A stretch of DNA of 48,611 bases from Acidobacteriota bacterium (lineage in GTDB: Bacteria; Acidobacteriota; Thermoanaerobaculia; Thermoanaerobaculales; Thermoanaerobaculaceae), in assembly GCA_004298115.1 (NCBI GenBank), contig SCRJ01000184.1, positions 1 through 48,611 on the forward strand, given 5' to 3'. Shown piece after piece: positions 1 through 47,188 of the stretch. The notes beneath the pieces are model-generated. The model ran no database searches, was not told where the DNA came from, and worked only from the letters and a program-made list of their open reading frames with translations. A program made the position numbers and the translations under genes. How positions within the stretch are numbered: the stretch's first letter is position 1; each line of letters starts with the position of its first letter.

Positions 1-1062
1 CACGAGCGCGAGCGTGCTGTAGAAGGCGTAGTTGACGCCGCGGCCGACGCCGCCCGCCGCCCCCGCCTCGGCGATCAGGTAACACGCCGCGCCGGTCACC
101 AGCGCCGCGACCCCGAGCGCGACCCCACCCGAGCCGGTTGCGCGCGCCACCATCGCGGCGCCGCCGAGGCCGACGAGCAGGGCGGCGATCGTCTGCACCG
201 CCTCGAACGCGCTCGCGTCGCGGCGGCGCAGCAGCGTCCGCACCGCGAACGTCGCCAGGTAGGCGACGAGCAGGCCGAGCGCGACCGTCTCCACGGCGGC
301 CGCCGTGAGGCCCTGATAGACCTCCGGCGGGCCGCCGGCGCGGGCCACCAAGGCCACGGCCTCGGCCACGACCAGGTCGGCGACCAGAGCCGCCGTCCAG
401 CTCAGGCCGAACCACCGGCGCGCGTAGGCGAGCCACACGGTCGCCACGCCGAGCGCCACCAGCAGCGCGGCGAGCACCGCGATCGCGTGCGTCGCGACCA
501 CGAGGGCGAACGCCGTCAGCAGGCCGGCCGAGGTCACCGCCCAGGCGGCCACCCCGAGGGAGCGCCGCCACGCCACCAGCAGGCCGGCGGCGAGGACGAG
601 CGCCAGCACCGCGGCCGCGCCCCGCGGTGCGAGCACCTCGAACTTCGTGGTCGCCTCCCACACCAGCGGGAAGGCGATGATCGTCGCGGTCACGCCGTGC
701 ACCTCGGCGCTCCAGCGCCGCCCGGCCGCGCCCGCCCGATCGGCGAGCACGAGCCACGCCCCGGCGTAGACGAGGCCGGCCGTGACGCCGCCGGCGACCG
801 GCAGCGTCCCGGCGTCCGTGAGCGCCCGCAGCAACCAGGCGCCGCCCAGCACCAGGAACACGCGCCCGAGCAGCGGCAGCACCGTCGCCGCGGCCACCCC
901 TCCGGACGGGGCCGCGACCTCGGGTCCGGCTTCGGCCGCGGCGCGCCCAGCGGGCGCGTCGGCCGCCCGGCCCTCCAGCGCCGCGATCCGGCCGGAGAGA
1001 CCGTCAACAGCCCGGGCAAGCGCCTCGAGCCCCGCCTCGACGCGTGCGAGCCGATCCTCCAT
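1..1062 (-). CDS. Partial DUF2339-like polytopic membrane protein (C-terminus off the window)
   Basis: The reading frame is open from an ATG at 1062 to the left edge (354 codons, no stop), so the gene is incomplete. The first 40 residues (MEDRLARVEAGLEALARAVD...) have the heptad look of a short coiled coil. An Ala/Pro-rich linker follows, and then many hydrophobic segments begin at about residue 60 (e.g. LPLLGRVFLVLGGAWLLRAL). This coiled-coil-plus-many-TM layout is that of the DUF2339 family of predicted inner-membrane proteins, whose role is unknown. A GGGGGGAG stretch just before the ATG supports the start. It is transcribed leftwards, away from the next gene. The family assignment is inference from architecture only; that it is a coding region is clear from the uninterrupted frame. 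Confidence 0.75.
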   Translation of the reverse strand, partial: MEDRLARVEAGLEALARAVDGLSGRIAALEGRAADAPAGRAAAEAGPEVAAPSGGVAAATVLPLLGRVFLVLGGAWLLRALTDAGTLPVAGGVTAGLVYAGAWLVLADRAGAAGRRWSAEVHGVTATIIAFPLVWEATTKFEVLAPRGAAAVLALVLAAGLLVAWRRSLGVAAWAVTSAGLLTAFALVVATHAIAVLAALLVALGVATVWLAYARRWFGLSWTAALVADLVVAEAVALVARAGGPPEVYQGLTAAAVETVALGLLVAYLATFAVRTLLRRRDASAFEAVQTIAALLVGLGGAAMVARATGSGGVALGVAALVTGAACYLIAEAGAAGGVGRGVNYAFYSTLALV

Positions 1063-1254
1063 CACTCCCCCCTGCGTTGCCTTGCGGCGAAACCTGGCCG
1101 GGAGTATACCCGCGGCCCGGTCGGGCGCCGGCACCCGACCGGGCGCACCGGCCCCGTCTTCCGCCTCGCGCCGTTCGCCGCGACAAGGGACCATCGGACG
1201 ACCGGCCCGGCATCACCCCCGGTGGGCCGGCGGCCTGAGGTACCATGCGCCGCA

Positions 1255-1737
1255 ATGACGCAGGCGTGGACATCGCAGAGCCGGCCCGGCCGGCAACTGG
1301 CGCTCGCGCTCGGCTGCGCGATCGTCGGGCTGGTGCTGATCTTCGCGCTGCACGGCGGCGGCGTGAGCCGCGACGCGAAGGCTGCCCGCCTGCTCGGCGT
1401 GATCCTGATCGTCATCGGCGTCGGGGCCGGCCTGACCGCCGGAACGCAAACCGTGACGGTTGACCCGCGGGCGAGGTCGATCACCGTGACCGACGCGCGA
1501 ATGGTCGGAGCCGCGAAGACGACGACGATCGTCGCCACCGATGTGCGCGAGATCGGGATCGGCTACCTCGGCAGGCGCTCGAACCGGGTGCAGTTCTATT
1601 ACCTCGTCCTCAAGCTGCGCGACGGCCACGACTACTCGTTGTTCGCCCCGGGCCGCTTCTACCCCGGCAGCTCCGACCGCCCGACGGTCGAGGGGTGGCG
1701 CCGGCGCGTGGCCGAGTCGCTCGGCATCCCCTCGTAG
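1255..1737 (+). CDS. Small two-TM hypothetical protein with a PH-like C-terminal half
   Basis: 160 residues from the ATG at 1255 (MTQAWTSQSRPGRQ). Two hydrophobic helices lie at about residues 15-34 and 45-62 (LALALGCAIVGLVLIFALHG and LLGVILIVIGVGAGLTAG). A soluble beta-rich part with the look of a bacterial PH-like domain follows (TVTVDPRARSITVTD ... VREIGIGYLG ... RVQFYYLVLKLRDG). I do not recognise a named family. The frame extends further upstream, but that part is arginine/proline-rich shadow of the opposite-strand gene, so the start at 1255 is preferred. Its last 17 bases are the start of a 135-bp segment that is repeated inside the neighbouring genomic island, which makes this gene the chromosomal left neighbour of the island. 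Confidence 0.65.
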   Translation: MTQAWTSQSRPGRQLALALGCAIVGLVLIFALHGGGVSRDAKAARLLGVILIVIGVGAGLTAGTQTVTVDPRARSITVTDARMVGAAKTTTIVATDVREIGIGYLGRRSNRVQFYYLVLKLRDGHDYSLFAPGRFYPGSSDRPTVEGWRRRVAESLGIPS

Positions 1738-1855
1738 CCGCGTCGGACTCCCGGCGCACGGCGGCGAGCCGCCGCGTCACGTCCCGGGACCCGAAGACGC
1801 GTCGAGCCGCCCCCGGGGCGGCTCGCGTGGCGTCGGTCGTATTGGTCGGGACGGG
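1721..1855. repeat. 135-bp direct repeat, copy 1 (chromosomal flank of the island)
   Basis: Runs from the last codons of the gene ending at 1737, through the native sequence downstream of the tRNA-Pro, into the first 15 bases of the tRNA 3' end. It matches 9888-10022 over the same length without gaps. I count 7 mismatches in 135 (94.8% identity). This copy is probably the original, because it contains the true end of the preceding gene and perfect hairpins. Confidence 0.9.
1803..1825. terminator. Perfect GC hairpin, terminator-like
   Basis: Eleven-base arms (CGAGCCGCCCC / GGGGCGGCTCG) around a single C, lying between the gene ending at 1737 and the tRNA-Pro remnant. There is no T-run, so intrinsic termination is uncertain. 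The corresponding hairpin in the repeat copy at 9888-10022 has one broken pair, as expected if only this copy is still under selection. Confidence 0.4.
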
Positions 1856-1887
1856 GGGATTCGAACCTCCGACCCCTTGAACCCCAT
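1841..1887 (-). repeat. attL-like duplicated 3' end of tRNA-Pro(GGG)
   Basis: These 47 bases match 14810-14856, the 3' half of the intact tRNA-Pro gene (anticodon, variable loop, T-arm, acceptor, CCA) plus two flanking bases, with one mismatch at 1868. After 1887 the sequence departs from the tRNA, so this is a tRNA fragment, not a gene. A tRNA 3' half duplicated 13 kb from the full gene is the classic mark of site-specific integration by a tyrosine recombinase. Confidence 0.9.
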
Positions 1888-2052
1888 GGCGGAATGGGGG
1901 CACGCCGACCTCCGGAGATTGAGGGGGCCAGCCGACGACGAGAGGCGCCAGATGGTTCCAAAGATCATTAGCATCCAAATATTGACGAACGAGCCCGAGG
2001 GCTCTCGGGGTAGCCGCACGGAGACCCACGGCGACCAAAGGCTCACTCGAAT

Positions 2053-2072
2053 GTGGACAACATTGTGGACAA
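2053..2072 (+). repeat. Left paired GTGGACAA sites (putative recombinase arm sites)
   Basis: GTGGACAA occurs at 2053-2060 and 2065-2072, a 12-bp period with four bases (catt) between. The same pair with the same spacing and orientation occurs at 14744-14763 inside the other end of the island. Short direct repeats just inside both attachment cores are what arm-type integrase sites look like. Apart from the repeats at the ends, positions 1888-2133 hold no gene that I can support. Confidence 0.6.
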
Positions 2073-2133
2073 GCCAATGGGACACAGGCTCCTTGCAGAC
2101 CTCGTGCGTTGCCCGGTCTCCCGCCTCGCCAGT

Positions 2134-3210
2134 TCAACCATGCCCATGCCGGTGATGGATGTCCGGGTAGTGCGGGTGCGAGTGGACGAGCGGTTCGTGG
2201 GCGTGACGATGGCTGTGCGGCGGCCCATCCTCCGAAGCGGGCTCGTGCATGTGCGCGTGGTGCTCGTCGTGGATGTGCCGATGCTCGTGCTCTACCGCGT
2301 CGTGTGCATGGTCGTGGGTGTGCCGCTCGGTGAGGTGGAGCCAAACGCCCGCAGCCATCAGCACCCCGGCCGCCGCGAGTTGCCAGCTCATTCGATCGCC
2401 CAGGGCGACAATCGACAGCACCGCCCCGACGAACGGCGCGACCGAGAAGTACGCTGCCGTGCGCGCTGTGCCGATCTGCCGCAGTGCCAAGATGAAGAGG
2501 GTGAGGCTCAGACCGTAGCCAAGCGCGCCTGCGACGGCTCCCCCCAGGAGGTAGGCACCGCCCGGCAACCGCTCGCCGGCGGCCAGCCCCAGGACGATGG
2601 AGGTCGGCCCGGCGACGAGGCCCTTGAGGCTCGCGATCTGCAGCGGGTCGCTGGCGGAGATCTTGCGGGTGAGGTTGTTGTCGACCGCCCAGGCCAGGCA
2701 GGCGCCCACGATGGCGAGGTTCGGCCAGATCGAACCACCACCGACCTGGCCACCGCTCCACGACAGCAGAACCCCACCACCGAGGATGCAGGCCATGCCC
2801 GCAAAGATGCGGCGGTCGAAGTTCTCCCGAAAGACGAACCACGCCAAGCCCGCCGTGAACACCCCTTCGAGGTTGAGCATGAGCGAGCCGGGCGCGGCGG
2901 ACGTTCCGCTCAACCCGGTCATGAGCAGCACGGGCCCGACGACCCCACCTGCCAGGATGGCGCCGGCGAGCCAACTAAGGTCGCCCACTCGCAGGGGCGC
3001 CTCGGGCGGTGCCCGCCGCAGGCGACTCCTGATCACCCACCAGGCGCCAAGCACGAGGCCAGAACCGGCGTAAAGGACGCCTGCCAGTATCGCCGGCTGG
3101 ACTCCAGCGAGGAGGGTCTTCGCGACTGGAGTGCTGGCGCCAAAGAGCGCGGCGGCGACCAGCGCGGCGACAACCCCTTGGCGCTGAGAGCGCGTCGGTG
3201 TGGCCGGCAT
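2134..3210 (-). CDS. EamA/DMT-family transporter with a histidine-rich C-terminal tail
   Basis: 358 residues from the ATG at 3210; an upstream in-frame start at 3312 would add 34 proline/arginine-rich residues and looks less likely. About ten hydrophobic helices in two EamA halves (e.g. GVVAALVAAALFGASTPVAK at the N-terminus) mark the drug/metabolite transporter superfamily, located in the inner membrane. The last 62 residues are hydrophilic and hold 23 histidines (HTHDHAHD, HEHRHIHDEHH, HSHRHAHE, HHRHGHG), an arrangement that would bind Ni, Co, Zn or Cu. The gene lies beside a heavy-metal RND efflux operon in the same island, transcribed divergently from it. A metal-linked transport role is inference; the substrate cannot be read from sequence. 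Confidence 0.85.
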   Translation of the reverse strand: MPATPTRSQRQGVVAALVAAALFGASTPVAKTLLAGVQPAILAGVLYAGSGLVLGAWWVIRSRLRRAPPEAPLRVGDLSWLAGAILAGGVVGPVLLMTGLSGTSAAPGSLMLNLEGVFTAGLAWFVFRENFDRRIFAGMACILGGGVLLSWSGGQVGGGSIWPNLAIVGACLAWAVDNNLTRKISASDPLQIASLKGLVAGPTSIVLGLAAGERLPGGAYLLGGAVAGALGYGLSLTLFILALRQIGTARTAAYFSVAPFVGAVLSIVALGDRMSWQLAAAGVLMAAGVWLHLTERHTHDHAHDAVEHEHRHIHDEHHAHMHEPASEDGPPHSHRHAHEPLVHSHPHYPDIHHRHGHG

Positions 3211-3532
3211 CACGTCACCAGCCGGATCGACTGGACCGGGGTCACCTGGACGCTCGCGGTTGTCCGAGGCCTGAGGCACCCTCGAACCGTAGCACGACAA
3301 CCGCAGTCGCACTGCGTGCTGAGAGATCCGGCGTTCACCAGCAGGGCAGGGTGGGGCCGAGTCACCACCCCTTCACGCCTCGGGCTCCTGGCAGCGGCCA
3401 CCGCCCAGCATGGGCCGAGCCCCGGCAGTACGGCGGCGCGTGTGCAAGGCGTGGGTCGTGGAGCCCGTCAGGCATTGCAGGGACTGGCCGTCTCCCGAGA
3501 TGGGCCGACCGGTTATGGTAGGCTCTGCCGCG

Positions 3533-3988
3533 ATGCGAGGGCTGCGTGCCGCTGCCGGCCGATGGGGAGGCCAACTGAGTACGGTCGTGGTTCTCCTCGG
3601 GTTGTGCGCGGCTGGGGTGGCCCCCCAGAATAGCGTCTGGTGCAGAGGCAGCGCTGGTCACACCGCGCTGGAGCCTGCATGGTCGACGTGCTGCGCGCCG
3701 GCGGACGGTGTGGGGAGCTGCGCCACGTGGTCTGCTCCCCTCGATTCCGGAGCCGACCCGGCGGTGCGAGAACCCAGCGTGATCCGCTGCGCGGACGTCT
3801 GGCTCGGCGTTCCCGGGGCGGTCTCCCAGTCACGCTCCTCCCTCCAGCCGCCGCTCCACGCGATAGCCGCCCCCGGAGCCGGTCTCTCGGCCTGCTCCGG
3901 TCCCCTCCGCTCAACCGGCTCGAGCGTCCCACCGCCGTGCGCGTGGCAAGTCCGAGAGCTGATCAGAACCACCGTCCTGACAATCTGA
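3533..3988 (+). CDS. Small Cys-rich exported protein heading the metal-efflux operon
   Basis: 151 residues from the ATG at 3533. A hydrophobic signal-like stretch (STVVVLLGLCAAGVA) is followed by a region with eight cysteines in the protein overall, including GHTALEPAWSTCC and a later IRCADVWLG. It ends in ELIRTTVLTI. Small secreted proteins with a conserved G-H-x-A-x-E motif, clustered cysteines and an R-[TS]-x-V-L ending often precede CzcCBA/CusCBA genes; that match is from memory and unverified. It lies 72 bp before the TolC gene on the same strand, so co-transcription is likely. A periplasmic metal-binding or sensing accessory role is inferred. Positions 3211-3532 upstream should hold the operon promoter, but no clear consensus was found. 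Confidence 0.6.
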   Translation: MRGLRAAAGRWGGQLSTVVVLLGLCAAGVAPQNSVWCRGSAGHTALEPAWSTCCAPADGVGSCATWSAPLDSGADPAVREPSVIRCADVWLGVPGAVSQSRSSLQPPLHAIAAPGAGLSACSGPLRSTGSSVPPPCAWQVRELIRTTVLTI

Positions 3989-4060
3989 TCCTCCCCAGCT
4001 CGTGCACTGACGTCTGCCTGCCTGTTGCAGGCTTACACCAGCGTCTACGGAGGATCCAAC

Positions 4061-5353
4061 ATGTCGAGAGTCTCACCCGTTCTTCTTGTGGTTCTCTATC
4101 TATTTGGGACGGCTCTGATCCTGGCCGAAGAGCAGCGACCCGCCGGGGCCTTGGATGCCGCGCCTGCATCGACGCTCACGCTGGCCGGCGCCCGCCAGCA
4201 GGCCCTTTCGACAAGCCCAGATCTGCAAGCCCTGAACGCTCGGGTACAGGCAGCCGAGGGTGCGGCGCGACAAGCCCGAGCGTTCGCCAACCCGGAACTG
4301 GCACTTGAGACGGAGGACTTCGGGGGCGACAAGACACTCGGTGTCACGCCCCAGAACACGGTGTCCCTGAGTCAGGGAATCGAGTGGTTCGGCAAACGCT
4401 CGGCAAGGGTTGAAGCGGCACAACACGGGAGCGAGGTTGCCGTGCGCGATCTCGCACGAGGGCGTCGCGACCTCTTGGCCGATGTCGATCGGGCGTTTAC
4501 GGCTCTCCTCGGCGCCCAGGACCGTGCGGCCATCGCCGAGCAGAACGCAGAAACAGCCCGCGAGGTCACACGGGCAGTCTCCAGCCTGGTTGCGGCCGGC
4601 GAGGTGTCGCCCGTCGAAGAGGCGCGCGCGCAGGGCGACGAGGCGTTGGCCGCGATCGACCTCGAAAACTCCAGGCGTGACCTCGACCTCGCGCGCCGGG
4701 AACTCACCCGGCTTTGGGGGGAAGACTCGCCGCCGTCCTTCGCGGCAGCCGGCACGCTCGCCGCTTCTGCTGTGCTTCCCGACCGGGACACCGCAATGGT
4801 CGGTCTCGCCTCACTCCCCGACCTGACCAGGTGGGACGCCGAGGTGGCCCGACAGACGTCCTTGGTTGAGTTTGCGCGCAAGCAGGTACTGCCGGACCTC
4901 AAGCTGAGCGTGGGGACCCGCTCCTACTCCGGGCTTTCCGGGCGGGCCTACGCGGCCGGGTTGGCGATTCCGATTCCCCTTGCCACCCAGTATGCCGGGG
5001 CCAAAGCAGAAGCGTCCGCCCATCAGGAGCAGATCAAGCTCGACCGGCGGGCGGAGGAGGTGCGGATCCGGGTGAGGTTCCTTGCCGCTCATGAAACGCT
5101 CTCTCGGGCGATCAGTGAAGCTCGGGCGCTCCGCGACGAGGTTCTCCCGAGAGCCGCGAGAGTCTATGAGGCGCTCAATGAGGGCTATCGCCGCGGGAAA
5201 TTCCGCCTTCTCGACCTCCTGGAGGCCCGGCGTACCCTCGCCCAGACGCGGCTGCGCTATGTCGATGCGCTGGTTCGCCTCAACACCGCCGATGCCGACC
5301 TGCGGCGGCTCCTCCCAGACGACACAGACAACTCGATCGGGGTTCAACGATGA
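4061..5353 (+). CDS. TolC-family outer-membrane channel of a heavy-metal RND efflux system
   Basis: 430 residues from the ATG at 4061, preceded by GGAGG at good spacing; an in-frame upstream start at 4025 lacks a ribosome site. A signal peptide (PVLLVVLYLFGTALILAE) is followed by two repeats of long amphipathic helices of the outer-membrane efflux protein family (LTLAGARQQALSTSPDLQAL ... RYVDALVRLNTADADLRRLL). It would form the outer-membrane and periplasmic tunnel of a tripartite pump. Its last codons overlap the adaptor start by 4 bp (ATGA), so translation is coupled. A hairpin GCCTGC/GCAGGC lies at about 4014-4030 in the leader. Family assignment is firm; CusC versus CzcC is not decided. 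Confidence 0.9.
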   Translation: MSRVSPVLLVVLYLFGTALILAEEQRPAGALDAAPASTLTLAGARQQALSTSPDLQALNARVQAAEGAARQARAFANPELALETEDFGGDKTLGVTPQNTVSLSQGIEWFGKRSARVEAAQHGSEVAVRDLARGRRDLLADVDRAFTALLGAQDRAAIAEQNAETAREVTRAVSSLVAAGEVSPVEEARAQGDEALAAIDLENSRRDLDLARRELTRLWGEDSPPSFAAAGTLAASAVLPDRDTAMVGLASLPDLTRWDAEVARQTSLVEFARKQVLPDLKLSVGTRSYSGLSGRAYAAGLAIPIPLATQYAGAKAEASAHQEQIKLDRRAEEVRIRVRFLAAHETLSRAISEARALRDEVLPRAARVYEALNEGYRRGKFRLLDLLEARRTLAQTRLRYVDALVRLNTADADLRRLLPDDTDNSIGVQR

Positions 5354-6699
5354 GCCACACGAGACCCCATTCCCCGGGCCACCGCGCTGTGCTGGGCAGC
5401 CTTGCCCTGTTGCTGGCAACTGCCGGCTGCCAGAAGGCCAATGTCCCAGCGACCGGAGCGGCTGATGCTTCAAAGGAGAGCCAGAGGACCGCTGCGCCGG
5501 TTGCCAAAGCCGAGGGTTCCGACCTCAATCGGTCGGTCAGGGACCTGCTGACCGCGACCTGCGAGCACAAGATCCCCATGTACACGTGCGACGAGTGCCG
5601 TTACGAGGTAGGAGTCGCCAAGGCGGGCGAGGAGATGTTCGACCCGGCACAGGGCGGCAAGCTCGCCACGATACGCGCTGGCTCCCGGCCCCTCGGGGGA
5701 GGCAGCGACTCAAACGGCGAGATCCGCCTGAACGAGGAGAGGGCCGTCTACCTCAGCCCGCTCGCACCCGGTGTGGTCCGCTCGATTCTTGTGGACCTCG
5801 GGGTGCGGGTGCTGCCTGGACAGGCGCTCTTCGAGGTTGAGAGCAACGAGTTCCGCCAGGCCAAGGCGGACTTGCTGCGCATTGAGGCCGCGCTGAAACT
5901 GGCGGAGGCGACCGCAACGCGCGAGCGAGACCTTCACGAGAAAGGTGTTTGCCCGCGCAAAGACGTCCTCGAGGCGGAAGCGGCGCTCGGGCAGACCACG
6001 GCGGAACGGTCCGCCGTGGTCGGCCGGCTGCTGGCGTTCGGTCTCGACCAGCACGCGATCGACCAGCTGCTGGTTGGCGGCGCCGTCTCCCAGTCCGGGT
6101 TGATGCCGGTGCGGGCACCGTTCGCAGGCACCGTGCTGGAGCGCTCGCTTTCACTCGGCGCCCAGGCACAACCCGGCGACAAGCTGCTCCTGCTCGCGGA
6201 CACCTCGAGGGTTTGGGTCATCACCACGGTATACGAGCGCGAGGTGGCGGCGCTGCTCCGCGCGCAGCGGCTTGGTCCCGTCCAGGCCACGGTTAGCGTC
6301 GCGGCCTATCCGGACTTGACGTTCAAGGGCCATGTAGAGCAGGTAGGTGGCACCCTTGACGAAGCCACGCGCACAGCGAGGGTCCGCGTCGTGGTGGACA
6401 ATCCCGACAACCTGCTCCGCGCAGGGATGTTTGCGAGGGTGCGGCTGCTCTTGCCGGGAGCCTCGGGTGGCCTGACTCTGCCCGAGCAGGCTGTCCTGGA
6501 GGACGAGGGCCGTTCGTTCGTATTCGTGCGGGCGGCAGGTCCCTACTTCATCCGGAGGCCAGTTACAACTGGCCGCGCCCTCGACGGCTGGGTGGAGGTC
6601 GGCGGCATCGAGCCTGGCGCCGAGGTCGTCGTGAAGGGCGCCTTCCTTCTCAAGTCAGACGTCTTGCGCTCGAAGATGGGCGCCGGCTGCGCGGATTAG
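5350..6699 (+). CDS. Periplasmic adaptor (membrane fusion) lipoprotein of the RND metal pump
   Basis: 449 residues. An N-terminal lipobox (LLATAGCQK) predicts lipidation at about Cys27. A cysteine motif near residues 71-82 (CEHKIPMYTCDEC, then RYEVGVAK) resembles the metal-binding insert of CzcB/CusB-type adaptors. The barrel-sandwich and hairpin follow (LAPGVVRSILVDLGVRVLPG ... VRAPFAGTVLERSLSLG), and then the beta-barrel domain (VWVITTVYEREVAALL). It bridges the RND pump and the TolC channel. It overlaps the TolC gene by 4 bp, and the pump gene follows after 8 bp, so the three form one operon. The metal ion is not determined by sequence, but the cysteine motif makes a heavy-metal rather than drug pump very likely. 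Confidence 0.9.
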   Translation: MSHTRPHSPGHRAVLGSLALLLATAGCQKANVPATGAADASKESQRTAAPVAKAEGSDLNRSVRDLLTATCEHKIPMYTCDECRYEVGVAKAGEEMFDPAQGGKLATIRAGSRPLGGGSDSNGEIRLNEERAVYLSPLAPGVVRSILVDLGVRVLPGQALFEVESNEFRQAKADLLRIEAALKLAEATATRERDLHEKGVCPRKDVLEAEAALGQTTAERSAVVGRLLAFGLDQHAIDQLLVGGAVSQSGLMPVRAPFAGTVLERSLSLGAQAQPGDKLLLLADTSRVWVITTVYEREVAALLRAQRLGPVQATVSVAAYPDLTFKGHVEQVGGTLDEATRTARVRVVVDNPDNLLRAGMFARVRLLLPGASGGLTLPEQAVLEDEGRSFVFVRAAGPYFIRRPVTTGRALDGWVEVGGIEPGAEVVVKGAFLLKSDVLRSKMGAGCAD

Positions 6700-6707
6700 G
6701 GGGCACC

Positions 6708-9700
6708 ATGACAACCTTCTTCGAGTGGATCGTGAAGCGCCGTTGGGCGGTTCTGTTCGTCGGTGCGCTGTTGGTGTTGGGCGGGCTCGTGGCCTGGGCG
6801 CGGCTCCCGATTGACGCATTCCCCGACGTGACCAACATCCAGGTCATGGTGCTGAGCAAGGCCGGCGGCCTGTCGGCGACCGACGTCGAGCAACGGGTCA
6901 CTTACCCGATCGAGCAGCAGATGGGCGGGTTGCCTAGGGTGACCCTGGTCCGGTCGCTCTCCCGGGCCGGAGTGTCGCAGGTCGTAATCGTCTTCAAGGA
7001 CTCGGTCGATCCCTATTTCGCCCGGCAGCTGGTATTCGAGCGGCTTCAGGGGGCGCGACAGCTCCTGCCTCCCGGGATCGAGCCCGAGCTGGCGCCGCTG
7101 TCGACCGGGCTCGGCGAGATCTTCCAGTACACCATCGAGGGCGAGGGATTCACGCCCATGGAGAAGCGGACGATCCAGACGTGGCTCGTTGCACCCCTAC
7201 TCCGGACGGTACCTGGGGTCACCGAGGTCAACAGCTTTGGCGGCGAAGTCAAGCAGTATCAGGTCGTCGTGCACCCCGACCGCTTGCTCAAGTACGGGCT
7301 CACCCTTCGAGAGGTCACCGAGGCCCTTGAACGCAGCAACGCCAACGCCGGCGCGGGCCTGATCCTCAAAGGATGGGAGCAGATGTACATCCGTGGCGTC
7401 GGCCTGTTCGCCACGATCAAGGACATCGAAAACGTCGTGCTCAAGGCGCAGGACGGCACGCCGGTGTTCGTCCGCGACCTCGCCGACGTTGTCGTGGGGC
7501 CACAGCTCCGCCAGGGCGCCGTCACCCGCGACGGCTCCGGCGAGACGGTGGCGGGCATGGCGATCATGCTGCGCGGTGAGAACTCCAAGACCGTGGTCTC
7601 GGCCGTCAAGGATGCGGTCGCCAAGATCCGGGAGCGGCTGCCCGAGGGGATGCGGATAGACGTCTTCTACGACCGAACGGAGCTGATCGAGGCATGCATC
7701 AAGACGGTCCAGGACGCGCTCCTCCAGGGTGGGATTCTCGTTATCGTCGTGCTCTTCCTGTTCCTGGCCGAATTCCGCACCGCCGCCATCGTCGTCCTCT
7801 CACTGCCGATCACGTTTCTATTTACGTTCATCATCATGGGCGCGACCGGATTGTCCTCGAACCTCATGAGCCTGGGCGGTCTGGCCTTCTCGGTCGGCAT
7901 GGTGGTGGATGCATCCATCGTGGTGGCCGAGAACGTCCGCCACCACCTTGCCGAGCACCGTGAACGGAGAGACCGTGGCCGGATTGTCGTCGAAGCGATG
8001 GTCGAGGTGGCCCAGCCGGTGACCTTCTCGGTCCTCATCATCGCCCTCGTGCTCCTGCCCCTGCTGACGCTGCAGGGTTTGGAAGGGAAGATGTTCGCGC
8101 CCCTGGCGCTTACCCTGCTGTTTTCGCTCCTCACGTCGATCATCGTAGCGCTTCTGCTGGTGCCCACCCTCTCACACATCCTGCTCAAGCAGGAGCCGGA
8201 ACGGGAGCTCGGGTTCGTCAGACGGTTCAAGCATGGCTACGACCGCCTGCTCCAGGGAGCCTTGCGCCGGCCCAAGACCACGTACGGAATCGCGCTGGCG
8301 GTGCTCGCAGGGTCCGCGTTGCTGATCCCCCTCATGGGCACGGACTTCATGCCGCCCCTCGACGAGGGCTCAATAGCCATCAATGTCGTCCGCTTGCCGA
8401 ATGCGTCGCTGGAGGGCTCCGTCGAGGTCGCGGCCATGATCGAAAAGAGGCTCCTGAAGTACCCCGAGGTGGCGACCGTTGTCTCGAAGTCCGGCCGGGC
8501 CGAGATCTCCGAGGACCCCATGGGGCCCGAGCAAACCGACGTCTTCGTCATGCTCAAGCCGAAGAGGGAGTGGAAGACTGGGCGCAACAAGGCACAGCTC
8601 GTGGAGGCGCTCAGCGCTGACCTGGCCAAAATCCCGGGCCTTCGGGCCGCGTTTTCGCAGCCGATCGCCTTGCGCGTCAATGAGCTGATCTCGGGCGTCA
8701 AGAGCGACCTGGCAGTCAAGGTGTTCGGCCCCGACCTGCCCGTCCTCAAAGAAGTCGGGGACAAGGCCGCGACGGCACTCTTGGGCATCAAGGGTGCTCG
8801 CGACGTGAAGATGGAGCAGGTCTCGGGGATGGCCGAGGTCGAGGTGAGGCTGGACCGCGAGGCCATGGCGCGCTACGCGCTCAACGTCGGTGACGTCAAC
8901 GAATTGCTCGAGGCCGCCTTCGCCGGCCGCACCGTGAGCACGTTTGTCGAAGGGGAACGCCGGTTTGCGGTGCTCGTGCGCTTCCCGGAGGGTACGCGCA
9001 GGGACATCCCGGCGATCGAGCAGCTTCTGGTACCGAGCCCTGCCGGCCAGCGCGTGCCGCTGGGACAGATCGCATCGGTCAAGCTCGTGGAGGGACCGAT
9101 GCAGATCAGCCGCGAAAGCGGGATGCGTCGCGTCGTCGTCGAGGCCAACGTGAGGGGTCGCGACCTGGGCGGCTTTGTGGGCGACGTCCGGAACGCTCTG
9201 AAACCGCTGCTGAGGGAGCTGCCCACTGGGTACTTCGTCGAGCTCGGCGGCCAGTTCGAAAATCAGCAGAGGGCTATGCGCCGGCTCGCCATCGTAGTGC
9301 CGATGGTCCTGCTCCTGATCCTCTTCCTGCTCTACTCGGCGCTCGGCTCCGCTCGCAACGCCGCATTGGTGCTCCTCAACCTGCCGTTCGCGTTGGTCGG
9401 CGGTGTGGTCGCCGCCGTCGCGTTCCGCATGACGCTGTCCGTGTCAGCCGCAGTCGCGTTCATCGTCCTCCTCGGCATCGCAGTGCAGAACGGCGTGGTC
9501 CTGGTTGCCTTCTTCAAGCAGCTTCGCGAGCGGGGCGTCGAGGTCGGAGTTGCGGTCGCCGAAGGCTGCCGGCGCCGTTTCAAGCCGCTGATGATGACCG
9601 CCCTGGTCAGCTTCATCGGTCACTTGCCAATGGTCTACGCCACCGGCTCCGGCGCCGACATCCAGAAGCCGCTTGCCGTCATCGTCATGGGCGGGATTAT

Positions 9701-9788
9701 CACGTCGACGCTGCTCACGCTGCTCGTGCTGCCGGTGCTCTACCACGCCCTCGAGAAGCGAGCCACTGCGGCGCAGGAGTCCCGGTGA
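6708..9788 (+). CDS. CusA/CzcA-family heavy-metal efflux RND pump
   Basis: 1026 residues, the usual length for HME-RND proteins. It begins MTTFFEWIVKRRWAVLF (TM1) and has the conserved periplasmic start LPIDAFPDVTNIQVMV. A TM4 motif VGMVVDASIVVAEN contains the Asp and Glu of the proton relay. The second half starts with a large loop (GTDFMPPLDEGSIAIN) and ends in a final TM bundle (GGIITSTLLTLLVLPVLYH). It is an inner-membrane proton-driven metal exporter working with the two genes upstream. The TM4 signature does not match one metal class cleanly, so copper/silver versus zinc/cobalt is open. A GGGGCACC segment precedes the ATG, 8 bp after the adaptor stop. Confidence 0.95.
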   Translation: MTTFFEWIVKRRWAVLFVGALLVLGGLVAWARLPIDAFPDVTNIQVMVLSKAGGLSATDVEQRVTYPIEQQMGGLPRVTLVRSLSRAGVSQVVIVFKDSVDPYFARQLVFERLQGARQLLPPGIEPELAPLSTGLGEIFQYTIEGEGFTPMEKRTIQTWLVAPLLRTVPGVTEVNSFGGEVKQYQVVVHPDRLLKYGLTLREVTEALERSNANAGAGLILKGWEQMYIRGVGLFATIKDIENVVLKAQDGTPVFVRDLADVVVGPQLRQGAVTRDGSGETVAGMAIMLRGENSKTVVSAVKDAVAKIRERLPEGMRIDVFYDRTELIEACIKTVQDALLQGGILVIVVLFLFLAEFRTAAIVVLSLPITFLFTFIIMGATGLSSNLMSLGGLAFSVGMVVDASIVVAENVRHHLAEHRERRDRGRIVVEAMVEVAQPVTFSVLIIALVLLPLLTLQGLEGKMFAPLALTLLFSLLTSIIVALLLVPTLSHILLKQEPERELGFVRRFKHGYDRLLQGALRRPKTTYGIALAVLAGSALLIPLMGTDFMPPLDEGSIAINVVRLPNASLEGSVEVAAMIEKRLLKYPEVATVVSKSGRAEISEDPMGPEQTDVFVMLKPKREWKTGRNKAQLVEALSADLAKIPGLRAAFSQPIALRVNELISGVKSDLAVKVFGPDLPVLKEVGDKAATALLGIKGARDVKMEQVSGMAEVEVRLDREAMARYALNVGDVNELLEAAFAGRTVSTFVEGERRFAVLVRFPEGTRRDIPAIEQLLVPSPAGQRVPLGQIASVKLVEGPMQISRESGMRRVVVEANVRGRDLGGFVGDVRNALKPLLRELPTGYFVELGGQFENQQRAMRRLAIVVPMVLLLILFLLYSALGSARNAALVLLNLPFALVGGVVAAVAFRMTLSVSAAVAFIVLLGIAVQNGVVLVAFFKQLRERGVEVGVAVAEGCRRRFKPLMMTALVSFIGHLPMVYATGSGADIQKPLAVIVMGGIITSTLLTLLVLPVLYHALEKRATAAQESR

Positions 9789-9825
9789 GGCTGCCGTGCA
9801 CGTCCGCAAGGGAAAGGAGATCCCG

Positions 9826-9887
9826 ATGAGGATGGTGATCGCGCACATTCACGACTTCATGGCCACTTGCGTACCTGACACCAACTT
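9826..9887 (+). pseudogene. Truncated P-II-like gene (N-terminal remnant only)
   Basis: A strong ribosome site (GGAAAGGAG) sits 6 bp before an ATG at 9826, 38 bp after the pump gene. The product starts MRMVIAHIHDFMA, resembling the first strand and helix of P-II-like proteins that often end Czc/Cus operons. The frame then enters a dispersed short motif at 9865-9882 and, at 9888, the 135-bp copy of the chromosomal flank. The frame stays open until 10176, but the rest is not P-II sequence. The identification rests on about 14 residues plus gene order, so it is tentative; the loss of the 3' part at the junction is seen directly. Confidence 0.45.
9865..9882 (-). repeat. Dispersed motif copy at the module junction
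   Basis: Read on the minus strand it is GGTGTCAGGTACGCAAGT. Related copies lie at 36134-36151 and 36272-36289, and the core GGTACCAGGTAC occurs at 31362-31373 and 34817-34829. It ends six bases before the 135-bp repeat begins, exactly where the P-II-like gene stops. Confidence 0.5.
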
Positions 9888-10022
9888 TCGGCATCCCCTC
9901 GTAGCCGCGTCGGACTCCCGGCGCACGTCGGCGATCCGCCGTCTCACGTCCCGGGTCCCGAAGACGCATCGAGCCGCCCCCGGGGGGGCTCGCGTGGCGT
10001 CGGTCGTATTGGTCGGGACGGG
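9888..10022. repeat. 135-bp direct repeat, copy 2 (flank copy inside the island)
   Basis: A gap-free match to 1721-1855 with 7 mismatches. It includes the last codons of the outside gene, the tRNA downstream flank and the first 15 bases of the tRNA 3' end (attggtcgggacggg). It separates the metal-efflux module from the defence module. No gene is seen from 10023 to 10101. Confidence 0.9.
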
Positions 10023-10101
10023 AGGAGACCCTCGGCGGCGAATGGGGCTCCCGCGTGCGGGGACCAGCCTGAACAGGACAGTGCGAGGTGGGCTCGACCT
10101 G

Positions 10102-11004
10102 TCAACGGCCGAGATGCCCGCGGGATGGCCCCTCCGTCCACGGTTCCCGGAGCAAGACGCCCACCTCCCGCCGTAGGTCCTCGATCACGAGATTCGCTGG
10201 CGGCAGGCCCAGGACGAGCGGTGCAAGGTCCGCATCCCAACCTGTGGAAACGGTCTCGACGAGCGCTGCCGGGAAGAAGTCGGCAGCGGAGCCAAACCTC
10301 ACGTCGCGAACGGCGCACTTGGCTGGCAGAATGCGGCGGATGGCCGCATCGTCGAGTGCCGCCGGCGGATCCCCGAGGATGCGCCAAAGGTCGTAAAGAT
10401 CTCGGCACCGCGGCCTGACCCAACCCCGTTCGCCGCGGCGGGCCTCGTTTTGGAGCAGGGCGCGCAGCTTCTCAGCGACGATCTCCTCGAGGCTGTAGGC
10501 GCGCACCGCACCCGTCAGTTCCTCGCCGTAGCCATGGATGATCGGACGCGCCGGGGTGGGAAGTAGGATCGGCTCATCGACCGTCACCTCGAGCTTCACC
10601 AGACAGAGCGGCCGCCGCTGCCACGGATACTGGACGCGAAAAGCGAAGCTCTCCTGAGCGTGCGGGTGCGGCTCGCGGTGGATCATGCGGTCGACGACGA
10701 CGCCGAATGGCCCATTGCCTGACAGGGTTTCTTGGGCGCGGCTGGCGACCGCTCGTAGGGCACCCTCGAGAGCGGTCCCGCGCGGGCCTCTCTCCGCGGA
10801 GAAGTCGAGATCCTCTGAGAACCGATAGTCGCCGAAATAGAGCTTCTTGAGCGCCGTCCCGCCCTTCATCACCAGAGAATCCGCGACGCTCGGCTCGCCG
10901 GCGATGGCCGACAGCAGGTGTCCGATCGCATAGTCCTTCAGGACCGTCTCGTACGGGATCGCGAGCCGTCTGGCCGTCGTCTTGAGGAGTTGTTCGAGTC
11001 TCAC
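10102..11004 (-). CDS. abiEii: AbiEii/AbiGii-type nucleotidyltransferase toxin
   Basis: 300 residues from the ATG at 11004. The nucleotidyltransferase core is clear: MKGGTALKKLYFG (residues 46-58) followed by YRFSEDLDFS, with the catalytic acidic pair at Asp65 and Asp67. AbiEii-family toxins transfer nucleotides onto RNA targets (tRNA acceptor ends for the best-studied relatives) and arrest growth, giving phage resistance or plasmid maintenance. The start overlaps the stop of the antitoxin gene by 4 bp (ATGA), the usual antitoxin-first coupled order. The C-terminal part is helical, without recognised motifs. Family assignment is firm; the target is inferred from relatives. Confidence 0.9.
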   Translation of the reverse strand: MRLEQLLKTTARRLAIPYETVLKDYAIGHLLSAIAGEPSVADSLVMKGGTALKKLYFGDYRFSEDLDFSAERGPRGTALEGALRAVASRAQETLSGNGPFGVVVDRMIHREPHPHAQESFAFRVQYPWQRRPLCLVKLEVTVDEPILLPTPARPIIHGYGEELTGAVRAYSLEEIVAEKLRALLQNEARRGERGWVRPRCRDLYDLWRILGDPPAALDDAAIRRILPAKCAVRDVRFGSAADFFPAALVETVSTGWDADLAPLVLGLPPANLVIEDLRREVGVLLREPWTEGPSRGHLGR

Positions 11005-11852
11005 CGGCCCCGTCTCCCGGCCAGATTGTCGATGAGCTTCCAGCGCCGGATCACGGTGCCTCGGCGTTCGCGCTGGGGATCAAGCGCCTGGACGCCCTTT
11101 ACGGGGAGAGCGATGAGCGGAGCGAGGAGATCATCCGCAACACCGAATGTCTCGAGCGCCCAGCCGAGCCGCTTCCCGACCGACACCACCCCGAGACGAA
11201 GGGTGTACGAGATCAGTTTCGCAAGGTCGAGCTCAGGATGGTGAGCCTCCAGGACCGCGAGCGTCTCGCCGAAGCCCCCGGCCCGCGATGGGTCGGCGAA
11301 GAGATCGAGCACTGTCCGCTCCCGGTCCGTGACGGGCACGCGGGTTCGATCATCGACCCAGATCTCCTCGACACCGAAGAAACGCGCCGGCCGTACCGAG
11401 ACGTATTGGATCCGTAGACCATCGATCTCCCACGTGCTTGCTCCCCGACGCTCCTTCGGGCGTCGCGAACGCATGGCCGGCGTCACGACCTTCGCTGTCG
11501 TCGTGCAGGTGATGATCTGTGGGATTTGTTCGGAGAGCCCGTGGAGTTGCAGCGCTGTCCTGTAGCTGAGTGCCGAAGGCGTATAGAGCGCGGTTGCGAT
11601 CGTATAGTCGTGCGGCGCGGTTGACCCCGGGAGCTTTCCCGTCACGGCGTAGAGACCGCGCCTGATTCGACGAATCCAACCCGCCGCCTCGAGCCGCAGC
11701 AGCACGTGGTAGACCTGCCGCGCCGCGAGCGAGCGGGCTGCGCCCGCGTCGAGAGCGTCGGCAGCCGTGAACACGAGCTTGCCACGCTCATCGAGGCCCT
11801 CGAGGAGCGCCAGACCCTGGCCGCCGCTGTACGAGTCAGGAAGGTGTGCCAT
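11001..11852 (-). CDS. abiEi: AbiEi-type antitoxin and autoregulator
   Basis: 283 residues from the ATG at 11852, with AGGA eight bases upstream; a TTG six codons earlier is the alternative. The N-terminal winged-helix part (RQVYHVLLRLEAAGWIRRIR, then RGLYAV) is the DNA-binding domain of type IV AbiEi antitoxins. The C-terminal domain (VTDRERTVLDLFADPSRAGG and onwards) is the part needed for neutralising the toxin in studied homologues. It is translated just before and overlaps abiEii. The promoter region contains an inverted repeat over the -35 box, matching the known negative autoregulation of AbiEi proteins. Confidence 0.9.
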   Translation of the reverse strand: MAHLPDSYSGGQGLALLEGLDERGKLVFTAADALDAGAARSLAARQVYHVLLRLEAAGWIRRIRRGLYAVTGKLPGSTAPHDYTIATALYTPSALSYRTALQLHGLSEQIPQIITCTTTAKVVTPAMRSRRPKERRGASTWEIDGLRIQYVSVRPARFFGVEEIWVDDRTRVPVTDRERTVLDLFADPSRAGGFGETLAVLEAHHPELDLAKLISYTLRLGVVSVGKRLGWALETFGVADDLLAPLIALPVKGVQALDPQRERRGTVIRRWKLIDNLAGRRGR

Positions 11853-11869
11853 ATCATCCGTCCTACGCA

Positions 11870-11906
11870 ATCTTACCCTGGGCGATGTTGCGTAGCAATA
11901 GTGCTA
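11870..11906 (-). promoter_or_regulatory. Putative abiE promoter with operator-like inverted repeat
   Basis: On the minus strand, TTGCTA (11898-11893) and TAAGAT (11875-11870) are 17 bp apart and fit -35 and -10 boxes. TAGCA-N4-TGCTA at 11893-11906 is a perfect inverted repeat covering the -35 box. The start codon of abiEi lies about 18 bases downstream of the -10 box, so the leader would be very short. Confidence 0.5.
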
Positions 11907-11949
11907 TTTCGCCGCATACCGTAGTGGGATCCACAAGGCTTCAAACGGC

Positions 11950-14466
11950 CTACCGCGTCTCCGTCTTTCCCGTCGAAGCGCTCGGGGCCGTGCTCTCCGC
12001 CTCGCGGTACCCGATCGCCCTGTAGCCCCGAAGCCGCCTCTGGAACATCCGTACGAGAGCTGGAACATTGGCGTCGACGTAGTCGTAAATTCGAACTTCG
12101 CTCTTGCCGACGTTCGGACGACTAAGCCTGCCGGCGTACTGCACGAGCGTCCCCTTCCAGGAAACCGGCAGCACGAGAAAGAGGGTGTCGAGGCGAGCGT
12201 CGTCAAACCCCTCTCCAACGTACCTCCCGGTCGCCAGAAGGAGCCGGGACTCCTCATCCGGGATCGATGCCAGACGCCCGAATTCCTCCCGGCGCTTCTT
12301 CGAGCCCATACCACCCCGCAGCACCACGATGTGTTCCACAAAATCGCGAAGCTGGTCAGCAAGCAACTCAAGGTGATCTCGCCGCTCGGTCAGGACGATT
12401 GGCGACCGACCTTCTTCCAGCGCCCGTTTGACGTCACCGACGACCAACTCGTTTCTCCGATCGTCAGCCGTCAACGCAGCGTAGATCTCCTGAATGCCAA
12501 CGTTTCGGTTTGTGCCCGGAAGGAGGAAGCCTGTCTCGCGGACGATCAGCCGGTGGTTGAGCGGCGGGTCGGAACCCGACTTGCGCCAGTCGGCCGCGAA
12601 ACGCACTGGTCCGACTTGCATGTGAATGATGGCTTGGTGGCCATCTCGCCTGTATGGGGTTGCCGTCAATCCCACGACGAACTTCGCCTTAACTTCAGAG
12701 AGAACCCGCTCGAACGTGAACGCTCCAAGATGGTGGCACTCGTCGACGATGACGTGCCCGTAGCCAGCAACTGCTTCGTCAACCTGGCCCTGCCGCACGA
12801 CGCTTTGGATCATGGCAACGTCGAGATGGCCGTTGGGCCGTCGCTTGCCGCCGCCGATCTGCCCGATCTCGCGCAAGTCGAGGCCAAGAAACAGGGCAAG
12901 CTGGGATACCCACTGATCGAGCAGCGGCTTCCGGTGCACCAAGATCAACGTGCTTCTTGCCCTCGCGGCCACCAAAAAGGCACCCACTACAGTCTTGCCA
13001 ACTCCCGGTGGAGCGACGAGAACACCCGTGTCATGGTCGAGTAGCGCGTGTGCAGCCTCTTTCTGGAGCGGCGTCAACGAACCATGGAATGTGAAGCTCT
13101 CGACCTCGCCGCCGACTCGTTCATCGCGGATTGAGAGCGCGGTACCGAGCTTCGCCAAGAGCGTCTCAGCGTCGCCGAGACAACCCCGCGGCAAAGCCAG
13201 GTGCTGACCGAGATCCTCCGCACACGAGATCACGCGTGGTGTGAGTGCGGTCGAGAACCGCATGCTCTGTTTCTTGTAGAACTCCGGATTCTGGAAAGAT
13301 GTCAGACGTTTGAGTTGGCTGATGAGCGGCGAGGACAAGCCGGCCTTCTCGACAAAGAGGCGCTGGGCAAGCACCGCCTTTGCTTCTGACGGGAAAGGCC
13401 CGACGAGAGCGGGGGATGCCATTTCACCGGATGGCCGCCGCAGCCATGGAACGATCCCGTCCTCGCCTTCCATTTCACTTAGCTTCACACCGATGACGCG
13501 CCCCTTTCGGGCGGCTTCGTCGGCAATCCCGTGGACCAGCGAAGCGTCGAGACGCGCGATGCTGGCAAGGAACGCCCACTGGTCTGTGAAGGATTGGAGG
13601 CCATCGTCGACGAATTCCGTGTTGCCATTCCTGCGAGGGTCCCACTGGAGCGGAAGGGCGATCAGGTTTCCGAATCCGCCCTTCGGCATCGTGTCCTGGT
13701 TTGGAAACAGCCGGTCATAGGACCTCACCGAGAGTTGGTGGCGCCTCGACATCGTCTCCGTGACGAGAAAACACCCCATTTGGCGAGCTGCTTGGGCCGG
13801 GACCGGTTCCGCAAAGAAGAACCACGCATGAGCCCCATTGCCCGACCGGGAACGTTCCACCGCGACCTGGACACCCTCAGCCTGGCACGTCTCTCGAAAG
13901 GCACCGACGTCCTCCTGCCAGCCCTCGTCATCGAAGTCGGCCGCGAGCAGCCAGCACGTTTCGTCCTCAAGCAGCGGGTACACACCCATGACCTGCTTGC
14001 CCTGCAGATGCTTGAGCAGCTCGGCGTCGGTTACGGGAAGGAACGCCCGTCTGAGGCAGTCGCCGCAGACTACGCTGCTGCGATGTCTCCCGGCCACACC
14101 GCGCTTCTCGCAGATACCTGGCACCCATTCGTTGGAACACGCGGGCGAGTACCCCGATCTCCCAGTCTTCGGATTCTCCCACCGTCTTGGGAACACATCG
14201 ACCCGGCCACGGAAGAGTGACCGGAAGAGAGCGACCTTTTCGTCGGCACCGATCCTCCGCGAACTGGACGTCGATGCTTCGGCGACCCTGACCGATGCCG
14301 GCGCCGATCCCGTCTGTTCTGTTGAGACTTCCATTTCCGCCTGGAGCTCGGCGATCCTCTGCGTTGCCCGCGCGGTCTCATCCTTGAGATCAGCCAGATG
14401 GCGCTCCTCACGCCGGATGTCGGCCAAGAGTTCCTCTGTTGGGCGTGGAGGTCTGCGTGAGCTCAC
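11950..14466 (-). CDS. TOTE-type archaeo-eukaryotic primase fused to an SF2 (DEAH-like) helicase
   Basis: 838 residues from a GTG at 14466; the frame opens at 14613, but the extra 49 residues cross a tRNA-like relic. Order of domains: a charged coiled coil (about 10-48); a cysteine cluster with Cys110, Cys119, Cys134 and Cys137 (YSPACSNEWVPGIC ... CGDC), probably zinc-binding; a primase core with ADFDD (176-180), SRSGNGAHAW (206-215) and LIALPLQ; then a superfamily-2 helicase with APPGVGKT (485-492), DECHH (575-579), LTATPYRRDG and a final QYAGRLSRP. This is the plan of TOTE conflict-system primase-helicases, thought to act in defence against invading DNA. I see no nuclease domain at the C-terminus. 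It lies 97 bp upstream of abiEi on the same strand, so the two may form a defence module. Confidence 0.85.
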   Translation of the reverse strand: MSSRRPPRPTEELLADIRREERHLADLKDETARATQRIAELQAEMEVSTEQTGSAPASVRVAEASTSSSRRIGADEKVALFRSLFRGRVDVFPRRWENPKTGRSGYSPACSNEWVPGICEKRGVAGRHRSSVVCGDCLRRAFLPVTDAELLKHLQGKQVMGVYPLLEDETCWLLAADFDDEGWQEDVGAFRETCQAEGVQVAVERSRSGNGAHAWFFFAEPVPAQAARQMGCFLVTETMSRRHQLSVRSYDRLFPNQDTMPKGGFGNLIALPLQWDPRRNGNTEFVDDGLQSFTDQWAFLASIARLDASLVHGIADEAARKGRVIGVKLSEMEGEDGIVPWLRRPSGEMASPALVGPFPSEAKAVLAQRLFVEKAGLSSPLISQLKRLTSFQNPEFYKKQSMRFSTALTPRVISCAEDLGQHLALPRGCLGDAETLLAKLGTALSIRDERVGGEVESFTFHGSLTPLQKEAAHALLDHDTGVLVAPPGVGKTVVGAFLVAARARSTLILVHRKPLLDQWVSQLALFLGLDLREIGQIGGGKRRPNGHLDVAMIQSVVRQGQVDEAVAGYGHVIVDECHHLGAFTFERVLSEVKAKFVVGLTATPYRRDGHQAIIHMQVGPVRFAADWRKSGSDPPLNHRLIVRETGFLLPGTNRNVGIQEIYAALTADDRRNELVVGDVKRALEEGRSPIVLTERRDHLELLADQLRDFVEHIVVLRGGMGSKKRREEFGRLASIPDEESRLLLATGRYVGEGFDDARLDTLFLVLPVSWKGTLVQYAGRLSRPNVGKSEVRIYDYVDANVPALVRMFQRRLRGYRAIGYREAESTAPSASTGKTETR

Positions 14467-14552
14467 TCTGAAACGGTAGCGATCTCCACCAGCCCGAGCA
14501 AGCAGGTTGGTGACCCTTGGGTCGATCGTTCGCCCGGGGACCGCCACAGCAG

Positions 14553-14575
14553 TTCGAACCCACGACCCTATTGAA
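14553..14575 (-). repeat. tRNA-like relic (anticodon-stem to T-loop fragment)
   Basis: On the minus strand it reads TTCAATAGGGTCGTGGGTTCGAA, close to the 3' half of tRNA-Pro (TTCAAGGGGTCGGGGGTTCGAA) with one substitution and a one-base length change. The bases that should close the T-stem are absent, so it is not a tRNA. It may be a trace of an older attachment event. Positions 14467-14811 hold otherwise only the paired GTGGACAA sites and no gene. Confidence 0.4.
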
Positions 14576-14743
14576 TCGCAGACAAGAAACAGACATCTCG
14601 TGGCGGAACTCAATGATTTGCGGACTACGTCTCAGACGATGAACTCATCTCCATGCCATTAGTTTTCAATGACATTGACGGATGAGGTTTCTCGCCGCGG
14701 CGGTCCGCTATGGAGGGCAATTCCGGGTATCCCCTCTTGGAAC

Positions 14744-14763
14744 GTGGACAAGAATGTGGACAA
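14744..14763 (+). repeat. Right paired GTGGACAA sites (putative recombinase arm sites)
   Basis: GTGGACAA at 14744-14751 and 14756-14763, again 12 bp apart with a four-base spacer (gaat) and in the same orientation as the left pair at 2053-2072. They lie 46 bp inside the right attachment core. Confidence 0.6.
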
Positions 14764-14811
14764 CGGGTCGGGAGATCGCCCTGAAACCACACGCTAAGTT
14801 ATTGGTTTTAT

Positions 14812-14888
<77 letters not shown>

Positions 14889-18012: not shown

Positions 18013-18794
18013 TACGACAGGGCTCCGGGGTCCGGGGTTCGGGTTCCGAACCGCAAAGGCCGGGGTCCGGGGTCCGGGGTTCGGGGTCCCGACGGCACGT
18101 CCCGGGTTCCGAATGCGGCAACACAGGCGGAGCGGAAGGCGCGGAAAACGGCGAGGTGCTCGGGCTGCGTGAGGTTCTCGGGGTGCCACTGGACGCCGAG
18201 GGCGAAGCGGTCGCCGCCGCGCAGCTCGACCGCCTCGATGACGCCGTCGGGCGCCACCGCGACCGGGTCGAGGGCCTCGCCGAGGTACTCGATCGCCTGG
18301 TGGTGGCGGGAGTTCACCCAGAATTCGTCCGGGCAGCCGGCGAGCCAGCGGCCGCCGCGGCGCTTCACGGTGTGGGCGAGGTGGTCTTTCGGCTCGGGCA
18401 CCCGGTGCCCGCCGCGGCCGGCGCGGTCGAGGTCCTGCACGAGCGTGCCGCCGTGGAAGACGTTGAAGATCTGAACCCCGTAGCAGACCGCGAGCACCGG
18501 CCACCGTTGCCGTTCGGCGCGAGAGAGCAGCGCGAGGTCGAGCGTGTCGCGCGCCGGGTCGGTGTGCAGCTCGACGCCGGCCTCGGGCTCCGCGCCGTAC
18601 CTGGCCGGCTCGACGTCGGGACCGCCGGTGAGCAGCAGGCCCGCGAACGCCGTCCCGGCGGGCACCTCCTCGGGCTTCGTCGAGGGCGCCACGAACACCA
18701 GCTCGGCAGGGTCGCCCCCGGCGCGCCGCCAGGCAGCGCCGAAACGATCCACCTCGAACGGACGGCGGTCGCTGCGAGTCACGAGGATCTTCAC
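18012..18794 (-). CDS. Class I glutamine amidotransferase-like hydrolase (PuuD / gamma-glutamyl-GABA hydrolase family)
   Basis: 260 residues from a GTG at 18794. Conserved motifs: LLLTGGPDVEPARYG, the nucleophile elbow AVCYGVQIFN (Cys catalytic), SRHHQAIEYLG, and GVQWHPE with the catalytic His and Glu. This is the peptidase C26 family, which hydrolyses gamma-glutamyl amides in polyamine breakdown. The exact substrate is not evident. The last 30 or so residues (GPRTPDPGPRPLRFGTRTPD) are encoded by degenerate GGGGTCCGG repeats and are unlikely to be part of the fold. The stop overlaps the der start by one base. It appears to head the puuD-der-mglA-merR run. Confidence 0.9.
   Translation of the reverse strand: MKILVTRSDRRPFEVDRFGAAWRRAGGDPAELVFVAPSTKPEEVPAGTAFAGLLLTGGPDVEPARYGAEPEAGVELHTDPARDTLDLALLSRAERQRWPVLAVCYGVQIFNVFHGGTLVQDLDRAGRGGHRVPEPKDHLAHTVKRRGGRWLAGCPDEFWVNSRHHQAIEYLGEALDPVAVAPDGVIEAVELRGGDRFALGVQWHPENLTQPEHLAVFRAFRSACVAAFGTRDVPSGPRTPDPGPRPLRFGTRTPDPGALS
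18023..18114. repeat. Degenerate GGGGTCCGG / GGGGTTCGG repeat tract
   Basis: About ten imperfect units of 7-9 bases (ggggtccgg, ggggttcgg, gggttccga) packed into 90 bases. It falls in the coding 3' end of the amidotransferase gene, where it adds a Pro/Asp/Gly-rich tail, and directly upstream of der. Such mosaic tracts are usually intergenic. Confidence 0.7.
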
Positions 18795-35667: not shown

Positions 35668-35678
35668 GACCGCTCGCA

Positions 35679-41988: not shown

Positions 41989-42187
41989 CTTGCTGCCCTC
42001 CCGAGTCGCAAAGTCTACGCCGTTTCGCGACCCAGGTTCAACGCGACCCGCCGGCGCGCGGCGCACCGTCACCGGCAACCCGGGCGCGTTGGCCCTCTCC
42101 CGCGGGGCGAACGGAGGCCGGCGCGAGCACCAAGCCGGTACGGCCAACACCAGCCCGCGCCGGGCGTCGGTGCGGCGGCACGGTCGG

Positions 42188-47185: not shown

Positions 47186-47188
47186 GAC

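Follow-up and report, generated by a model that had tools for sequence, protein, structure and literature searches.

A second copy of the chromosomal flank inside a tRNA-Pro island, and a possible merger of two islands

The genomic island at the tRNA-Pro(GGG) gene of this acidobacterium contains, between its metal-export genes and its phage-defence genes, a second copy of the chromosomal DNA that borders the island on the outside. The copy was found in the window, i.e., the whole stretch of 48,611 nucleotides that was analysed, and it marks the seam of a composite structure, at which a P-II-like protein gene is cut and tRNA-Pro fragments of unequal length accompany the two flank copies. On these independent grounds the claim of the sequence-only reading that the island is composite and grew in two steps holds. 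The most economical account of all the limits is that two islands were inserted separately at tRNA-Pro and then merged, with one homologous end and one illegitimate end at 9888; we assign it a probability of about 0.45, which is a little short of even odds.

The flank repeat and the tRNA-Pro site

Direct comparison of 9888–10022 with 1721–1855 gave 128 identical bases out of 135 (94.8%) in an ungapped alignment, which confirms the repeat as it had been described beforehand, including the end of a chromosomal gene and bases of the tRNA. The match has a sharp left limit at 1721/9888 and continues on the right to 1859/10026 (131/139), with one further difference at 1856. It is composed of the last 17 bases of a 416-aa open reading frame (487–1737), a 103-base intergenic stretch and 19 bases of the 3' end of tRNA-Pro. 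The seven differences within the 135 bases (1761, 1768, 1775, 1776, 1789, 1801 and 1819 in the coordinates of the outer copy) are confined to the middle 59 bases (clustering p = 0.024). Chance is excluded as the origin of this match. A simple dispersed repeat, which had been named in advance as an objection, was ruled out as well: apart from the tRNA gene and short matches that are tRNA-like or due to chance, the search of the whole assembly found the two copies only, and no further copy was present in the eight congeners. The 416-aa gene has a homologue in a congener (G006:C116), with 85% DNA identity at 1262–1735, and its protein matched no Pfam or NCBIfam family.

The window also carries other repeats. 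A direct repeat of 296 bases with 97% identity lies outside the island (35676–35971 and 38202–38497, 2526 bases apart), and a tandem repeat of 273 bases (88%) occupies 43100–43645 inside an open reading frame of about 2000 codons on the reverse strand (42038–48157), with a partial third unit near 43812. Two adjoining 42-base G-rich tandem units of the GGGGTCCGGGGTTCGGG type were found at 18020–18103.

The tRNA-Pro gene (Table 1) together with the fragment of its 3' half at 1841–1887, which is about 47 bases long and differs from the intact gene at one base, defines 1841–14811 as an island in the usual sense, bordered by the intact tRNA on one side and by its displaced 3' part on the other. The tRNA-Pro genes of congeners match this outer fragment similarly. 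From 14890 onward, beyond the tRNA, the DNA is conserved at 80–84% in congeners, whereas every congener has other sequence on the island side; the tRNA-Pro site is thus an integration hotspot. As a further sign of this kind, an open reading frame that by eye resembles the end of a HipA-type toxin kinase lies beside tRNA-Pro in congener G002 (L034, G002:C109). The flank itself is old tRNA-side sequence, since its part at 1761–1840 aligns to the DNA beside tRNA-Pro in the same congener. No integrase gene was found in the contig of the window, and the Phage_integrase model detected six elsewhere in the genome.

The tRNA fragments of the two flank copies end at different points. The inner copy stops at 10026, immediately before the T-loop sequence TTCGAA, whereas the outer fragment reaches the anticodon loop. 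The crossover subsites known from tRNA genes include the anticodon loop, the T loop and the T/acceptor junction (PMC4383910), and the 47- and 19-base fragments fit the first and the second of these, respectively. Past the two flank copies, comparison of 1860–2130 with 10027–10300 revealed no homology beyond that of shuffled sequences.

Table 1. Features of the island and of its borders in window coordinates.
Feature	Position	Strand	Evidence
Chromosomal gene beside the island, 416 aa; last 17 bases inside the repeat	487..1737	+	homologue in congener G006:C116
Outer copy of the flank repeat	1721..1859	+	direct comparison
Displaced tRNA-Pro 3' fragment ending in the anticodon loop (outer attachment fragment)	1841..1887	+	match to tRNA-Pro
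Motif pair GTGGACAACATTGTGGACAA close to the left end of the island; candidate integrase arm site	2053..2072	+	motif search
Metal module	2134..9788	mixed	protein families; homologous block in G013 at 80%
EamA-type transporter with His-rich stretch	2134..3312	-	metal module
Outer-membrane efflux protein	4025..5353	+	metal module
Adaptor	5350..6699	+	metal module
CusA/CzcA family RND pump	6708..9788	+	metal module
P-II-like gene remnant truncated by the seam	9826..9898	+	intact gene directly after CusA in G013:C49
Inner copy of the flank repeat	9888..10026	+	direct comparison
Short tRNA-Pro 3' fragment within the inner copy, ending at the T-stem/T-loop border	10008..10026	+	match to tRNA-Pro
AbiEii toxin (type IV toxin-antitoxin)	10102..11004	-	Pfam PF08843 1.2e-34; PADLOC AbiEii 1.2e-60
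AbiEi antitoxin	11001..11870	-	Pfam PF13338 3e-8; PADLOC AbiEi 4.4e-56
TOTE-type primase-helicase protein	11950..14613	-	Pfam AEP-TOTE 1e-92
Possible relic, other half of the tRNA-Pro fragment, beginning at the T loop	14553..14587	+	alignment score 31
Motif pair GTGGACAAGAATGTGGACAA close to the right end of the island	14744..14763	+	motif search
Intact tRNA-Pro(GGG), integration target	14812..14888	-	tRNA identified in sequence

The seam at 9888 and the modules beside it

The seam can be followed from the metal side. In a relative of the same family (G013) the pump block, corresponding to 5518–9863 of the window, is present at 80% identity, and a whole P-II-like gene of 113 aa stands immediately 3' of CusA (G013:C49). 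The arrangement of a P-II-like gene beside a CusA-type gene is also found in other genomes of the class. In the window the P-II-like gene starts at 9826, and about 15 codons can be aligned collinearly with the relative's gene before the flank copy begins; position 9888 is thus a breakpoint inside a protein gene. The hexamer ATCCCC occurs in the P-II-like gene of this one relative at the position matching the seam, give or take one base, and is present in the flank as well, which is suggestive of a microhomology scar at the join. A transposon end at 9860–9888 was considered and rejected: apart from its occurrence at the seam, the motif GTTGGTGTCAGGTACG has no exact match in the genome, and a single site resembles it with two mismatches, so no element family is indicated.

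The assembly is fragmented (203 contigs), and the two flank copies are identical over blocks of 40 and 36 bases, within which an assembler working with short k-mers could swap paths and produce a chimera of two strains. However, such a swap would exchange variants between existing copies rather than create a second one, the seven private bases of the inner copy need reads of their own, and there is no long shared sequence at the 9888 join that could mislead an assembler. Given the private differences and a join without shared k-mers, misassembly is unlikely, and we regard an artefact of this kind as the least probable of the explanations considered here.

On the other side of the seam lie the defence genes, which encode the AbiE pair and a TOTE-type protein. 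The latter is about 50% identical to plasmid proteins over 92%, and a search of plasmids matched this helicase alone. Its homologues start near residue 60–65, and the true start of the gene is therefore probably near 14430–14460.

Histories that could have produced the inner copy

According to the preferred reading, a metal-export island would have been inserted at tRNA-Pro(GGG) beside its own copy of the flank, displacing the 3' end of the gene up to the anticodon loop. A defence island carrying AbiE and TOTE would have been inserted independently, beside another copy of the flank, and would have displaced the 3' end up to the T loop. Incoming DNA with the order flank, short fragment, defence genes and tRNA-Pro may then have taken the place of the metal island's right-hand portion. 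On the right this DNA would have recombined through the homologous tRNA side, and homologous exchange is possible there, since the DNA from 14890 onward is conserved in congeners and the island side is variable. Its left end would have been joined illegitimately at the ATCCCC microhomology within the P-II-like gene after CusA. The inner flank would thus be the left edge of the second island, which may have had no function since its arrival and may be decaying. From the anatomy of the locus we infer that two separate insertions came before the merger, that one end was homologous, that the other was formed at a microhomology and from which source the incoming DNA came.

Serial integration at one site does not fit, because the locus has two displaced tRNA fragments that differ in type, and a flank copy accompanies each of them. 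Serial stacking would place an inner fragment beside the neighbouring island, not beside a second copy of the flank. In tandem arrays each member brings its own integrase and tRNA fragment, with no flank inside the array; here a flank copy lies next to the inner fragment.

The base changes of the inner copy bear on whether it arrived from elsewhere. Congener G002 can serve as an outgroup at two of the differing sites (1775 and 1819), and at both it has the base of the outer copy, which makes the inner base the derived state and favours decay in place. In folding energy the inner copy does not differ from versions of the outer copy carrying seven random substitutions, about 40% of such mutants folding at least as well on both strands, and nothing in the inner copy looks selected. 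The differences fit a loss of function either after arrival or after duplication, and they do not discriminate for or against the origin in a related strain that the divergence had suggested. In genome contigs from a collection with one genome per species and close relatives left out, neither the 416-aa protein nor a 20-mer of the flank matched a sibling strain. Similarly, no strain with the metal island alone or the defence island alone was found in collections composed in this way.

A possible relic of the tRNA lies near the right end of the island, upstream of the TOTE gene. The 35 bases at 14553–14587 begin at the T loop, exactly where the fragment of the inner flank copy stops, and their alignment score of 31 was reached by none of 2000 shuffled versions of the 490-base region and by 1 of 300 for the whole module; Rfam did not recognise them. 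The relic is 191 bases from the paired motif on its right, and the corresponding distance from the outer fragment is 193 bases. The sequence between relic and motif shows a weak in-register similarity to its outer counterpart (p about 0.01 to 0.03 with an alignment band, not significant without it). For these matches, which were spotted post hoc and lack support from Rfam, a possible interpretation is that the defence genes landed within a complete second attachment fragment.

The closest rival to the merger is a tandem duplication within a single lineage, which we consider rather unlikely. It supposes that flank and island were duplicated together when the P-II-like gene of the metal island became joined illegitimately to the end of the 416-aa gene; the metal genes of the second copy would later have been lost, defence genes would have entered at its tRNA fragment, and seven changes would have accumulated in the inner flank by drift. 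This history yields the same join with a flank that needs no foreign DNA, and the derived state of the inner copy at the two polarised sites, its folding energy and the diverged second stretch from fragment to motif (14553–14763) all speak for it. However, the second metal copy would have had to be deleted in full later on, and the defence genes would have had to arrive in an event of their own, precisely at the flank fragment. In addition, the divergence of the stretch at 14553–14763 greatly exceeds that of the flank copy, which is still 94% identical.

The paired motif may point in another direction than the merger. Among 149 genomes of the class, this one included, GTGGACAANNNTGTGGACAA occurs only at 2053 and 14744. 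If it is an arm site, both ends of the island may be tied to one integrase; a single element, or a pair using the same integrase, fits this better than two elements with different crossovers, which counts against the merger. The motif presumably resembles a DnaA box, and among the 90 viral-contig stretches that carry the GTGGACAA pair, several look like DnaA-box clusters. As a known integrase arm site the pair was rejected: in the 80 listed of these 90 stretches there were one integrase and two tRNAs, and a simple scan for integrase boxes placed this integrase about 4.6 kb from the motif.

A single attachment site near both ends would agree with the model put forward in the sequence-only reading, namely a circle that was excised imprecisely together with flank DNA and that re-entered either through one crossover in the flank or by site-specific integration. 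A single crossover would leave direct repeats around the metal module, as seen, and an Enterococcus island is known to be excised imprecisely together with fragments of the chromosome (PMC3084688). Nevertheless, we hold this model to be improbable. The contig lacks an integrase gene, the left join lies within the P-II-like gene and not in the attachment core, the metal side has no attachment core, and the right end of the inner copy is without most of the 47-base core. The illegitimate end of a linear exchange, or a tandem duplication, explains the join more simply than a circle.

Significance and comparison with known systems

We propose tentatively, and with somewhat more doubt than attaches to the merger itself, that islands at one tRNA can grow by the integrase-free merger of islands that had been inserted separately in different strains, using homology at the conserved tRNA side and joining illegitimately at the opposite end, a route separate from serial site-specific integration. 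The scar of such a merger, one flank copy for each tRNA fragment, is recognisable. If the merger is true, the scar, i.e., a flank copy by an inner tRNA fragment of the other crossover type, becomes searchable in genome collections, and such a search could count integrase-free mergers against stacking. The 139-base direct repeat could also allow the 8.2-kb metal module to be lost by homologous recombination. Taken alone, the locus is one more composite island.

The locus resembles the tRNA islands and tandem arrays of the Islander collection in its intact tRNA at one end, its displaced 3' fragments and the matching crossover subsites, but it differs from tandem arrays, where every member has its own integrase and an inner fragment lies beside another island (PMC4383910), because here the neighbour of the inner fragment is a copy of the outside flank and an integrase is lacking. 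The proposed exchange would be similar to homology-facilitated illegitimate recombination, in which one end is formed by homology and the other by a join at microhomology, usually of 3–10 bases, with replacement of resident DNA (PMC3240628); the stretch exchanged here would, however, exceed the length of about 1 kb that is typical of reported cases, and the event is deduced from the anatomy of the locus. In the pathogenicity island of Enterococcus faecalis, which is excised imprecisely and whose excised circles have been observed, chromosomal flank DNA travels with the island as it does here, although in the present case neither an integrase nor a circle was observed (PMC3084688). The event belongs to a known and ordinary kind of genome evolution, whose scar at this tRNA-Pro gene is unusually readable and well bounded.
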